Shown here one piece after another: positions 5,001-23,474 of a stretch of DNA of 64,000 nt. Below the pieces are notes generated by a model. It ran no database searches. It was not told the origin of the DNA and saw nothing but the letters and a program-made list of their open reading frames with translations. The first letter of the stretch is position 1. Each line of letters starts with the position of its first letter. The stretch is from contig NZ_FNVP01000001.1 in the NCBI RefSeq assembly GCF_900108015.1, positions 558,001-622,000 on the forward strand, given 5' to 3'. The position numbers and the translations under genes are program-made. This DNA is from Flavobacterium urumqiense (GTDB lineage Bacteria > Bacteroidota > Bacteroidia > Flavobacteriales > Flavobacteriaceae).

Positions 5001-5445
5001 CAACGGATACTTTCAATGTGTTTTTATCCAATTCCTTTCGAGTCACCACTTTCTCAAATAATGCTTCGGGATAGGTGACAATAATTGCCGGTTTTTTACG
5101 GGAATTGATTCTGTTCAGGACTTCGGCGCGAAGCAAAACATTGGCATTATCTGTTTCTTCAATTTGGTACGGTCTACGGTAGGAACCGGGATAAAATAAT
5201 ACATCTTGCTCCCCAACCATCTGTTCGAGATCATTCAAATAATAAGCAGCTTCTTCTTTATTGTTTAAAACAACCAAAAAAGGAAGTTCCGATTTCTTAA
5301 AAATGGAACGTATTACAAAGGAAAGCGCCGATCCAATTAATCCGGAAAGGTGCATTTTTACTTGATTATTTTCCAATAAACGAGCAACGATTTGTTGGGT
5401 TTTTGGAGATTCATCGTAAGTGTTATATAAAGCTTTTTTACTCAA
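2080..5445 (-). CDS. mfd: Transcription-repair coupling factor Mfd
   Basis: A 1121-residue SF2 DNA translocase that removes stalled RNA polymerase and recruits UvrA. Order seen: N-terminal UvrB-like module (to about 330); RNA polymerase interaction/CarD-like region around 440-510 (TLSVGDYVTHIDHGIGRFGGLQ); Walker A CGDVGFGKTE near 585-595; DEEQKFG (motif II) near 688; TATPIPRTLQ; QMRGRVGRS (motif VI); C-terminal TRCF domain. The frame opens at a TTG (5443-5445) inside the last codons of the upstream gene, overlapping it by 8 bp; there is no ATG near the conserved start, so translational coupling is likely. All core motifs are intact. Confidence 0.97.
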   Translation of the reverse strand: MSKKALYNTYDESPKTQQIVARLLENNQVKMHLSGLIGSALSFVIRSIFKKSELPFLVVLNNKEEAAYYLNDLEQMVGEQDVLFYPGSYRRPYQIEETDNANVLLRAEVLNRINSRKKPAIIVTYPEALFEKVVTRKELDKNTLKVSVGDKISIDFINEVLFEYEFKRVDFITEPGEFSVRGGIVDVFSFSNDNPYRIEFFGDEVESIRTFDVATQLSIVTQKKITIIPNVENKVFQENRESFLDYISEKTVIFIQNTEDFLSQLDKQFGKAEEAFAKLSQEIKRSAPEQLFLNQAEFIKRALDFSIVELSSKAIFRTTKKFEYHIQPQPSFNKQFDLLLNNLNENHFNGYKNYLFCSNDAQAKRFHDIFETLDEANSENIRKQYNTIVLPLYQGFIDEENQITCYTDHQIFERYHKFSIKNGYSKKQNITLKELTTLSVGDYVTHIDHGIGRFGGLQKIQVEGKTQEAIKLVYADNDIVYVSIHSLHKISKYNGKDGTPPKIYKLGSNAWKILKQKTKARVKHIAFNLIQLYAKRRLEKGFQFAPDSYLQNELESSFMYEDTPDQTKSTAEVKADMESDRPMDRLVCGDVGFGKTEVAIRAAFKAVDNSKQVAILVPTTILAYQHYRTFTERLKDMPVSVGYLNRFRTAKQKAETLKQLAEGKLDIVIGTHQLVNKNVVFKDLGLLIVDEEQKFGVNVKDKLKTIAANVDTLTLTATPIPRTLQFSLMAARDLSVITTPPPNRYPIETNVVGFSEELIRDAISYEIQRNGQVFFINNRIENIKEVAGMIQRLVPNARVGIGHGQMEGRKLEELMLAFMNGEFDVLVATTIIESGLDVPNANTIFINNANNFGLSDLHQMRGRVGRSNKKAFCYFICPPYSAMTDDARKRIQALEQFSELGSGFNIAMKDLEIRGAGDLLGGEQSGFINEIGFDTYQKIMNEAIDELKENEFKDLYPEENNLETKEYVKDLQIDTDFELLFSDEYINNVSERLSLYNELGAVKNEEELIIFQNKLIDRFGPMPPRAKALMNSIRIKWIATRIGIEKLVMKQGKMIGYFVSDQQSAYYQSNRFQDVLQFVQKHSAICKMKEKQTPAGLRLLLTFDNVKNTRRALELMEMLGK

Positions 5446-15617: not shown

Positions 15618-15821
15618 ATGGACTTTATTTTAAAAAATGTAAAGAAAAAAGATTTTCCAGTCTTAAAATCATTGGCAAAATCACTTGGATTTGAAATTAT
15701 AAAACAAGAAAAATCATACAACCCTGAGTTTGTAAAAGAAATTTTAGAAGCAGAACAAAGTATTAAAGACGGGAAAGGGATAAAAATGACGATGGAAGAA
15801 ATACGTGCTTTATGCAAATAG
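15618..15821 (+). CDS. Antitoxin of a type II module (DUF2683-like)
   Basis: A 67-residue protein starting MDFILKNVKKKDFPVLKSLAK, with a C-terminal helix KMTMEEIRALCK. Size, charge pattern and the 10-bp overlap with a YoeB-type toxin identify it as the antitoxin; this N-terminal form matches the DUF2683 family as I recall it. It would neutralise the toxin and probably repress its own promoter. It lies 20 bp after sufB in the same direction, so it is likely co-transcribed with the SUF genes. No promoter of its own is evident. Confidence 0.82.
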   Translation: MDFILKNVKKKDFPVLKSLAKSLGFEIIKQEKSYNPEFVKEILEAEQSIKDGKGIKMTMEEIRALCK

Positions 15822-16084
15822 TATTTACGACTAAAGCAAAAAAAGATTTAGATTTTTGGATTAAATCTGGAAATAAAAACATCTTAAATAAAATCACAGA
15901 TTTAATAGAGGACATTCAACTACATCCTTTTGAAGGAATCGGAAAGCCGGAACAATTGAAATACCAACTTTCTGGAAAATGGTCAAGAAGAATAAATGAA
16001 GAACATCGCATTATATATAAAGTTATCGAAGAAAATACAATTGAAATATTAGACATTTTATCACTAAAAGGTCATTACGAATAA
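15812..16084 (+). CDS. YoeB/Txe-type mRNA interferase toxin
   Basis: A 90-residue RelE-superfamily toxin: QIVFTTKAKKDLDFWIKSG at the start, then HPFEGIGKPEQLK, the strongly conserved GKWSRRINEEHRIIYKV, and an end LKGHYE close to the typical HY tail. YoeB toxins bind the ribosomal A site and cut mRNA. The start overlaps the antitoxin gene by 10 bp (coupled translation). Only 11 bp separate its stop from sufC. The presumed catalytic Glu, Arg and His/Tyr residues are all present, so the toxin looks functional. Confidence 0.9.
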   Translation: MQIVFTTKAKKDLDFWIKSGNKNILNKITDLIEDIQLHPFEGIGKPEQLKYQLSGKWSRRINEEHRIIYKVIEENTIEILDILSLKGHYE

Positions 16085-16852: not shown

Positions 16853-17341
16853 AAAATAGTCAAAAGTCTAAGGTCATAAAGTCAAAAGAAAAAAGTAATT
16901 GGGAAATTTAATTCTTTCGAAGAAATTAATTCTTGGCAAAAAGCAAGAGTTTTTAATAAAAGAATTTACCAAATTACTGAAAATACAAATTTCAAGAAAG
17001 ACTTTGATTTCATTAGACAAATTAGACGAGCTTCAATTTCTACATCATCAAATATCGCTGAAGGTTTTGAGAGAAATACTGACAAAGAGTTTGTTTACTT
17101 TTTATACGTTGTAAAAGCTTCCGCTGGAGAAGTTCGTTCTCAATTATATTTAGCATTTGATTTAGATTATATTACTAATGAAGAATTTGAAAAACTTTTA
17201 GAATCAGTAACAGAAATATCAAAATTGTTAAGTGGTTTTATTAAATATTTATCAAAAGGCTAAATTTTGAAAGTCTAAAATTCGAAAATTTCCACACATT
17301 CGACTTTTAGACATTCGACTTTAAGACTTTAAGACTTAAAT
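16853..17341. repeat. Imperfect inverted AAGTCTAA-type repeats flanking the four-helix-bundle gene
   Basis: The left arm (about 16853-16888) carries AGTCAAAAGTCTAAGG and AAAGTCAAAAG. The right arm (about 17268-17341) carries AAGTCTAAAA, CGACTTTTAGACATTCGACT and three GACTTTAA-like octamers. The right arm read in reverse complement resembles the left arm over about 40 bases with gaps, so the arms could pair in RNA. The arms start 5 bp after sufC and end 5 bp before sufD. Confidence 0.5.
16898..17263 (+). CDS. Four helix bundle protein (23S rRNA intervening-sequence type), no ATG start
   Basis: The frame ending at TAA 17261-17263 encodes about 121 residues: FNSFEEINSWQKAR, FDFIRQIRRASISTSSNIAEGFER, FVYFLYVVKASAGEVRSQLY. 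This is the signature of the four-helix-bundle family first seen inside intervening sequences of bacterial 23S rRNA genes. The frame is closed upstream by TAA at 16877-16879 and contains no ATG, GTG or TTG before the conserved region. The only near-start is ATT at 16898, giving I-G-K-F-N-S. Either it uses a rare start or it has lost its start codon. The rest of the frame is intact. It lies between sufC and sufD. Function unknown. Confidence 0.75.
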   Translation: MGKFNSFEEINSWQKARVFNKRIYQITENTNFKKDFDFIRQIRRASISTSSNIAEGFERNTDKEFVYFLYVVKASAGEVRSQLYLAFDLDYITNEEFEKLLESVTEISKLLSGFIKYLSKG

Positions 17342-22450: not shown

Positions 22451-22474
22451 TTTTAAACATATAAGTCATATTAG
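22451..22474 (+). repeat. Left inverted repeat of the GxxExxY element
   Basis: Starts TTTTAAACATATAAGTCATA, directly after the sufE stop codon. Pairs with 23114-23137 with one mismatch. Confidence 0.85.
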
Positions 22475-22531
22475 TTTTTTTTAATTCAAATAAACATATA
22501 CTTATTTTATCAATATTAAAAGCTGATTGCT

Positions 22532-22945
22532 ATGAACATAACAAGGAGTTATCTCAAAGATTTAGTTTATCAGGTTAATGGCGCAGCAATTGAAGTTCAT
22601 AAAAGTATAGGTCCGGGTCTATTGGAAAGTGTTTATCATCAATGCCTAAAAAAAGAATTAGAGTTACGAAAAATAAATTATTCTTGTGAATTATTGGTCC
22701 CTTTAAAATATAAGGGACATGAGTTAGAATCTAAATTAAGATGTGATTTATTTATAGAAAATGTTCTTGTTGTTGAATTAAAATCGGTAAATGAAATAAA
22801 CCCAATTTATGAAGCACAATTGCTTACTTATATGAATTTATTAAATGCGCCAATTGGTTTGTTGATTAACTTCAATGTGAAAAATATTTTCTACGAAGGT
22901 CAAAAAACAATGGTAAATGAATTATATAGTCGACTTGAAGACTAA
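22532..22945 (+). CDS. GxxExxY family protein (PD-(D/E)XK nuclease-like)
   Basis: A 137-residue protein. The namesake motif is GLLESVY inside HKSIGPGLLESVYHQCL. Downstream, RCDLFIENVLVVELKSV gives the D...E-x-K core of the PD-(D/E)XK nuclease fold, the superfamily to which I recall this family being assigned. The family is multi-copy in Bacteroidota and has no established role. The gene lies between sufE and the DUF59 gene, inside an inverted-repeat-bounded unit, and is in the same direction as its hosts. The predicted active-site residues look intact. Confidence 0.88.
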   Translation: MNITRSYLKDLVYQVNGAAIEVHKSIGPGLLESVYHQCLKKELELRKINYSCELLVPLKYKGHELESKLRCDLFIENVLVVELKSVNEINPIYEAQLLTYMNLLNAPIGLLINFNVKNIFYEGQKTMVNELYSRLED

Positions 22946-23113
22946 AAAAACAAATTGTTTTAAACAAATTAGCATACTAGATTAAAAAACATGAATAAAT
23001 ATTAAAAAGTCAACATATAAGTGATACCAGCAAATTAGATGAAGACACATATATTAAAAATTAAAACAGAATAAAAACTTACATATACTTACATTTTACT
23101 TTAAATAAAGAAA

Positions 23114-23137
23114 CTTATATGACTTATATGTTTAAAA
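23114..23137 (-). repeat. Right inverted repeat of the GxxExxY element
   Basis: Reverse-complement partner of 22451-22474; ends 13 bases before the ATG of the DUF59 gene. A partial third copy of the core AACATATAAGT occurs at 23012-23022, and a direct ACATATACTTA repeat occurs at 22494 and 23081. Confidence 0.85.
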
Positions 23138-23150
23138 AACAGAAAAAATT

Positions 23151-23474
23151 ATGACACAAGAAATAGACACAACTGAATTAGGAGAATCAATCGTAAAAAT
23201 ATTAAAAACTATTTACGATCCGGAGATTCCTGTCGATATTTACGAATTAGGATTGATTTATGACGTGATGGTTAATACGGATTTTGAAGTAAAAATCCTG
23301 ATGACTCTTACATCGCCAAACTGCCCGGTTGCAGAAAGTTTACCACGAGAAGTGGAAGAAAAAGTAAAATCATTAGAGAATGTAAAAGACGCTGAAGTAG
23401 AAATTACTTTTGATCCGCCTTGGAGCAAAGATTTAATGAGTGAAGAAGCAAAATTAGAATTGGGAATGCTTTAA
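23151..23474 (+). CDS. DUF59/MIP18-family Fe-S assembly protein (SufT/PaaD-like)
   Basis: A 107-residue protein with the DUF59 fold: LKTIYDPEIPVDIYELGLIYDV, then the Cys-bearing MTLTSPNCPVAESLP and ITFDPPWSKDLMSEEAKLELGML. Members act in late Fe-S cluster insertion (SufT) or in phenylacetyl-CoA oxygenase maturation (PaaD). Placement after sufS and sufE supports the SUF role. Its stop is immediately followed by the ABC transporter ATG (1 bp apart), so the two are translated from one mRNA. Confidence 0.92.
   Translation: MTQEIDTTELGESIVKILKTIYDPEIPVDIYELGLIYDVMVNTDFEVKILMTLTSPNCPVAESLPREVEEKVKSLENVKDAEVEITFDPPWSKDLMSEEAKLELGML

Follow-up and report, generated by a model that had tools for sequence, protein, structure and literature searches.

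A GxxExxY gene between inverted iteron arrays in a Flavobacterium SUF operon: a probable gene-carrying unit within a widespread family of repeats

Why does a single small gene stand between two inverted repeats in the gap that separates sufE from the next gene of a SUF operon, and what kind of unit do the repeats and the gene form together? The question is raised by a stretch of 64,000 nt from Flavobacterium urumqiense (the window), in which sufE (PF02657; 22031..22450, + strand) is followed by a DUF59 gene (SUF_assoc; PF01883, TIGR02945; 23151..23474, + strand, with its ATG at 23151). The first-pass annotation had reported inverted ends at 22451-22474 and 23114-23137, agreeing at 23 of 24 positions, starting one base past the sufE stop, finishing 13 bases short of the following ATG, and enclosing only a GxxExxY gene. 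This description held in all its parts: the ends are complementary at 23/24 positions, and a repeat search extends them to 31 nt at 94% (22451-22481 and 23107-23137). The left arm, an iteron array (AAACATATAAG TCATATTAG; 22451..22481, + strand) with copies elsewhere in the genome, has its first base directly after the sufE stop; the right arm, an inverted iteron array (23107..23137, − strand) matching the arm core exactly, leaves 13 bases before the DUF59 start. Only one open reading frame of at least 60 aa lies between the arms, namely the GxxExxY gene (22532..22945, + strand, 137 aa), and the repeat search also detected a partial internal arm copy (AACATATAAGTGATA; 23012..23026, + strand). 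Each arm is an array of approximately 9-nt iterons repeated directly within it; across the iteron classes, the period is about 8-11 nt, and the clearest period, of 9 nt, is that of the CATATAAG class. In the predicted transcript, the arms pair as the closing stem of the whole unit (z −2.82; 0/20 shuffles as stable), which is the fold that the first-pass annotation expected.

The same operon carries a second unit of like layout. At 16858..17338 (+ strand), a gene of the PF05635 four-helix family (the 23S IVP family; profile match at 16919-17236) is located between a sufC-like ABC gene and sufD, the second SufBD gene, and is flanked by inverted, iteron-like arms of its own, identified by eye at about 16858-16888 and 17301-17338; the SUF operon thus contains two repeat-bounded small genes. 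A YoeB-like toxin reading frame (PF06769, E 2.3e-26) at 15812-16084, between the sufB-like and sufC-like genes, brings the number of small inserts in the operon to three.

The 137-aa protein matches TIGR04256 (E 2.8e-38, 130.8 bits against a curated cut-off of 35) and PF13366 (E 7.6e-37, 126.7 bits, cut-off 22), and the G-x-x-E-x-x-Y motif is present as GLLESVY. E32 and Y35 of this motif are invariant in an alignment of 18 sequences (A1), as are D72, E82, and K84. Nucleases of the Cas4/RecB family are marked by a PD-(D/E)XK core with E-D-ExK and QxxxY. The AF2 model confidently predicts a PD-(D/E)XK nuclease-like fold near Cas4 and other PD-(D/E)XK enzymes, in agreement with the core proposed for GxxExxY proteins in the first-pass annotation; a search by sequence found no PDB relative up to E 1. 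Profile searching of the window protein found only PF13366, and neither a Y1 HUH transposase nor any known transposase domain. The gene is under purifying selection, with a dN/dS of 0.047 between the window gene and its orthologue in genome G015 and of 0.04-0.14 in ten pairs. No role has been assigned to GxxExxY, a large family of at least 7998 proteins at E 0.001 or better, and the presence of the family in the genus is patchy (49/61 genomes). Repeats linked to these proteins are not treated in the passages found that name GxxExxY, and among the papers listed by literature searches, judged by titles and the beginnings of abstracts, none is on them; the name "PDDEXK_3" and six repeat strings searched as text were likewise absent from the literature searched.

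Comparison of 60 sufE-DUF59 junctions of the genus, the window's included and with classes assigned by eye (a 61st genome had no DUF59 match), shows that the junction does not normally include the unit. The gap is only 0-11 bp in 18/60, which provides the empty junction that the first-pass annotation had proposed to look for, and a GxxExxY gene is present in 11/60, frameshifted in one case, with a decayed remnant at one more junction. Other junctions contain gene-less hairpins of the CATATAAG type (5, and 2 partial), the CCATTAAG type (4), or the CACGAATT type (3), and at 16/60 the gap consists of 17-751 bp of other sequence. On a quick tree of sufE and DUF59, the different states are intermingled among close relatives, so the content of the junction turns over. 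Hairpins of three iteron families swap at one gap among close relatives (loci L103, L104, L106, L108, L109, L111, L114, L115, L117, L124, L125, and L126), and no mechanism was found for the exchange of unrelated iteron families at one junction position.

The arms are also copied far from the SUF operon. With up to 3 mismatches, the arm core AACATATAAGTCATATAAGTTT has 18 matches at 12 sites in the window's genome, and its reversed control has 0. Both arms are found at 6/12 sites at this threshold, while an inverted partner is found at all 12 when up to 5 mismatches are allowed, in the window unit's order at 9 and in the opposite order at 3. The 11 other sites enclose no gene, their partners lying within about 130 nt, so the repeat ends that the first-pass annotation had proposed to look for elsewhere do recur, and only the window pair encloses a gene. 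Five family matches are present in this genome in all; besides the window gene, three GxxExxY genes were examined, and by eye these are embedded in repeats of other families, of the CCATTAAG, CGCAAAGACGCTAAG, and CACGGATTAAACGGATT types. Across the genus, the core of the window's own class (class A) occurs with up to 2 mismatches in 27/61 genomes; two further classes reach up to 184 copies (class B) and 114 copies (class C, with 749 matches over all 61 genomes) in one genome. Reversed-pattern controls for A, B, and C gave 1, 4, and 57 hits over the 61 genomes.

Class B allows the gene-less elements to be compared with each other. They are mostly about 125-145 bp long, alike from AAACACATAG to CTATGTGTTT, and have internal motifs in common in both orientations (20 aligned). 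A 597-bp gene-bearing copy, whose frame has a stop, has by eye the same left subterminal stretch as the gene-less copies. One gene-less copy is missing from the same gap in 9/9 relatives; comparison of the filled site, which also contains a second inverted repeat, with the empty ones gave an overlap of 9-12 bp at 6/9 empty sites and none at 3, with no clean target duplication. No movement of elements was seen. Three further observations concern the surroundings of such repeats: some class-B elements are enclosed, as if nested, by a second inverted repeat of the CCCGTTGGGTGTAATTA type (L387 at 5009-5221, and the flanks of L394); five same-strand AAACACATAGCTACATAG copies are spaced 147-295 nt apart (L399, G044:C65:25.8-26.7 kb); and several tandem copies of a stretch resembling a tRNA 3' end (gaggcatcgtccggattcgaac) lie beside a repeat copy (L017, about 1630-1920; G000:C26:424.7 kb).

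Inverted flanks are a general property of GxxExxY genes. We scored the local alignment between the upstream and downstream flanks of each gene, with other reading frames as controls. A score of at least 34 was reached by 43/60 GxxExxY genes of the genus and by 5/324 control ORFs (p = 1.3e-27); at a threshold of 28, the counts were 85/103 distinct loci and 17/324 controls, and at 24, 91 of the 103 loci. Among the highest-scoring controls that were examined are PF05635 genes with their own iteron-like arms, RuvC genes next to repeats of this kind, and a Y1 transposase. At L150 (2679-3074), a gene for an IS200-like Y1 transposase, a possible RAYT in the genus, has inverted flanks (AGCTCCATAGGAGC). 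In a wider set from many phyla, 92/133 loci scored at least 28 and 41/133 fell below it, compared with 13/331 controls; when five named Flavobacterium loci are left out, the proportion is 87/128, and for loci of title-only records it is 61/82. Genus and wider sets combined give 177/236 loci against 30/655 control ORFs at this threshold. CACAGAG-type arms were found at one archaeal locus, from Thermoplasmatales (L347), and were absent at another, from Methanothrix (L322).

The sequence of the arms follows the protein. An iteron class could be assigned by motif count at 87/103 genus loci, the other 16 being without classifiable arms, and on a quick tree of the 103 proteins, built from few columns and with many forks open, iteron class changes 27 times against a shuffled mean of 66.9 (0/200 shuffles as low). 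The CATTAAG class forms one supported branch with 4 sites, and the iteron of the clade's nearest relatives in the case of the window genes, CACATAG, is similar to the window's own. By common neighbours, the 87 classed loci represent only 29 sites, so the match between protein and iteron partly reflects shared descent; yet classes recur at several sites. Since, in addition, 9/9 labelled window-class genes are at one site, the genes are mostly inherited in place. Two sites carry related proteins and differ between genomes in the class of the arms on both sides (L053/L061/L156 versus L173, and L177/L183 versus L185/L248); two more mixed-class sites depend on a fuzzy divide between CAAAG and CAGAG, and at one (L056/L068) the proteins are less related to each other. 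Within a unit, the left and right arms are more alike than the arms of other units of the same class in 78/87 cases; for the junction units alone, own arms are more alike in 8/11, the own partner being the best match in only 2/11.

Copy number follows the gene in two of the three classes, with gene class per genome assigned by hand and with p-values that ignore kinship. The median number of copies per genome is 26 with a B gene and 1 without (p = 1.6e-6), 31 with a C gene and 4 without (p = 1.4e-4), and 5 with an A gene and 0 without (p = 0.019). With the gene's own arms removed, and kinship again ignored, the excess is still significant for B (p = 3.3e-5) and C (p = 5.8e-4) and not for A (p = 0.1), so that the window's own class is the weakest for this cognate association. 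None of the six non-cognate pairings of gene and repeat was significant. Repeats are also found apart from their genes: 9-33 class A copies occur without a close A gene in G004, G006, G010, G027, G028, and G031, and class B copies are common without a B gene in G055 (61), G007 (54), and G003 (43). The 12 genomes without any GxxExxY gene have few repeats, the exceptions being G010 (A, 9), G009 (B, 5, and C, 10), and G038 (C, 12).

Gene-bearing and gene-less units differ in how they are placed. At 81/87 loci, the gene-bearing unit is flanked by co-directional genes and is in sense with them, compared with 236/375 control genes (p = 2.1e-9), or at 26/29 when counted by site (p = 0.0019), with medians of 4 nt from the upstream stop and 7 nt to the next start. 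A pattern search of the locus set gave 43 gene-less copies, 35 in co-directional gaps, 5 in convergent and none in divergent ones, and 3 at edges; the orientable gene-less copies of class B are antisense in 12/16 cases. As gene-less copies are not bound to an orientation while the gene is in sense, insertion itself may not be strand-bound, with the gene surviving where it is transcribed, and its sense placement is probably kept by selection for expression. PF05635 genes, present in 60/61 genus genomes, are placed in the same way: the best-scoring ones, one per genome (L417-L446), are in sense between co-directional genes at 30/30 loci, and 22/30 have inverted flanks scoring at least 28, of the AGTTTCTAAG, TTAGACTTCTTAGA, and GTATACTGTA types.

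The closest known parallel in layout is the RAYT-REP system. According to passages of one report (PMC2817692), RAYT genes are always flanked by two inverted REPs, with gene and repeat trees agreeing in Stenotrophomonas, and the abstract of another (PMC3116915) describes REPINs as inverted REP doublets with predicted hairpins. GxxExxY units similarly consist of a single gene between two inverted repeats, are accompanied by many gene-less copies that often form inverted hairpin-forming pairs, and show agreement of gene and repeat phylogenies, cognate copies abounding for classes B and C and only weakly for the window's class A. The components, in contrast, are different: RAYTs are Y1 HUH transposases (IS200/IS605-like), whereas the GxxExxY protein belongs to PF13366/TIGR04256 and its predicted fold is PD-(D/E)XK-like; a REP is a palindrome with a GTAG/GTGG head, whereas these arms are direct iterons of 8-11 nt, and by eye that head is absent from the AT-rich arms of the window and from those of the other loci. 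Sense placement of gene-bearing units in operon gaps also sets them apart. The layout and co-evolution are therefore RAYT-like, but the transposase and the REP head are missing, which rules out membership of RAYT-REP.

The 23S rRNA intervening sequences are a second relative in form, since in both cases a terminal stem of approximately 30 bp (here a predicted fold) closes a unit that contains a small ORF. According to passages of PMC4990558, the 23S intervening sequence of Coxiella is closed by a terminal stem of 28 bp, and RNase III excises it in vitro. Membership of this group is ruled out by location and protein: the window unit lies between the protein genes sufE and DUF59 rather than inside a 23S gene, its protein is the unrelated PF13366 and not PF05635 (S23p), and its repeat has many gene-less copies. 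Sense placement in operons is common to GxxExxY units and to PF05635 genes, the family of these intervening sequences. The short gene-less elements with terminal inverted repeats resemble MITEs, and those of class B contain subterminal sequence of a gene-bearing unit; unlike the MITEs of DNA transposons, there is no clear target duplication, and the one gene of the window unit is not a known transposase. The protein also differs from the Cas4/RecB-family and Holliday-junction nucleases, having only 137 aa and lacking a PDB relative detectable by sequence.

A gene between mirrored arrays, gene-less copies elsewhere, and like arrays in many phyla together suggest that the protein recognizes and spreads the repeats. 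We therefore consider it likely, with some reserve, that the unit is a gene-bearing member of a widespread iteron family, whose protein recognizes its own iterons and moves or copies the elements in a RAYT-REP-like manner. According to this model, the GxxExxY protein would bind its own iterons, as a hairpin or single strand, and its E-D-ExK centre would cut at the element ends, such cutting driving the copying of elements into new gaps. The gene, having presumably no promoter of its own, would be kept only where read-through from the host operon transcribes it in sense, and the arms, paired in the transcript, may spare the host messages.

This last step is what the first-pass annotation had taken as the whole explanation: an mRNA-level intervening sequence whose arms pair and could be cut by RNase III, sparing the host messages. 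Read in this way, the unit would be a cargo of operon transcripts and the repeat families would be by-products. Parts of that proposal stand, namely the absence of the unit from the normal junction, the predicted closing stem, and the sense placement of GxxExxY genes at 81 of the 87 loci, and it draws further weight from the PF05635 genes, with their uniform sense placement and frequent inverted flanks, and from the excised Coxiella sequence. The arms, on the other hand, are interspersed, and their sequence tracks the protein tree; gene-less copies ignore orientation, being mostly antisense in class B and lying in convergent gaps in 5 of the 40 cases within gaps. Pairing alone requires neither direct iterons within the arms nor their change with the protein clade. 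Interspersed gene-less copies, convergent gaps, antisense class B, and the match of arms to tree point to a DNA-level repeat family, and we regard the mRNA-level explanation as unlikely.

Still less probable is a domesticated host system, in which the nuclease serves the cell by cutting hairpins or invading DNA, in repair, or in regulating genes at operon gaps, and the dispersed copies are sites for it to bind and not the progeny of a mobile element. Purifying selection, the mostly fixed sites (29 for 87 loci), a predicted fold close to Cas4 and other PD-(D/E)XK enzymes, and the lack of gene-less copies in divergent gaps (0/40) would suit such a role, whereas the patchy presence of the gene, both among genomes and at the junction, and the alike ends and common internal motifs of the gene-less class-B copies speak against it. 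It is also conceivable that gene and repeat have no functional link, the AT-rich stem-loops having been spread by another enzyme with the small gene inside by chance; the Y1 transposase gene at L150 could move hairpins, and some genomes with class A repeats lack a close A gene. The class-by-class match of protein and iteron and the wider flank survey, with high scores at three quarters of GxxExxY loci and few control ORFs, already make this unlikely, and we give it very little credence.

The preferred reading, of a protein that recognizes and copies its own iterons, can be extended from this locus to the family. Somewhat more tentatively, and by a narrow balance in favor, we propose that GxxExxY proteins power a second REP-like system, one that spans phyla and is based on a PD-(D/E)XK nuclease of the Cas4/RecB type, in which every lineage of the protein co-evolves with an iteron palindrome of its own and drives the CACAGAG, CGCAAAG, CGGATT, CATTAAG, and CATATAAG repeats of many bacterial and some archaeal genomes. 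If true, this would be an independent, non-HUH counterpart to RAYT-REP systems, and the correspondence of iteron type and protein clade would offer a readable protein-to-DNA code. It would also give a possible reason for small genes sitting in sense between the genes of operons, and the production of interspersed repeats by GxxExxY proteins would account for the family as well as for the repeats themselves in many phyla.
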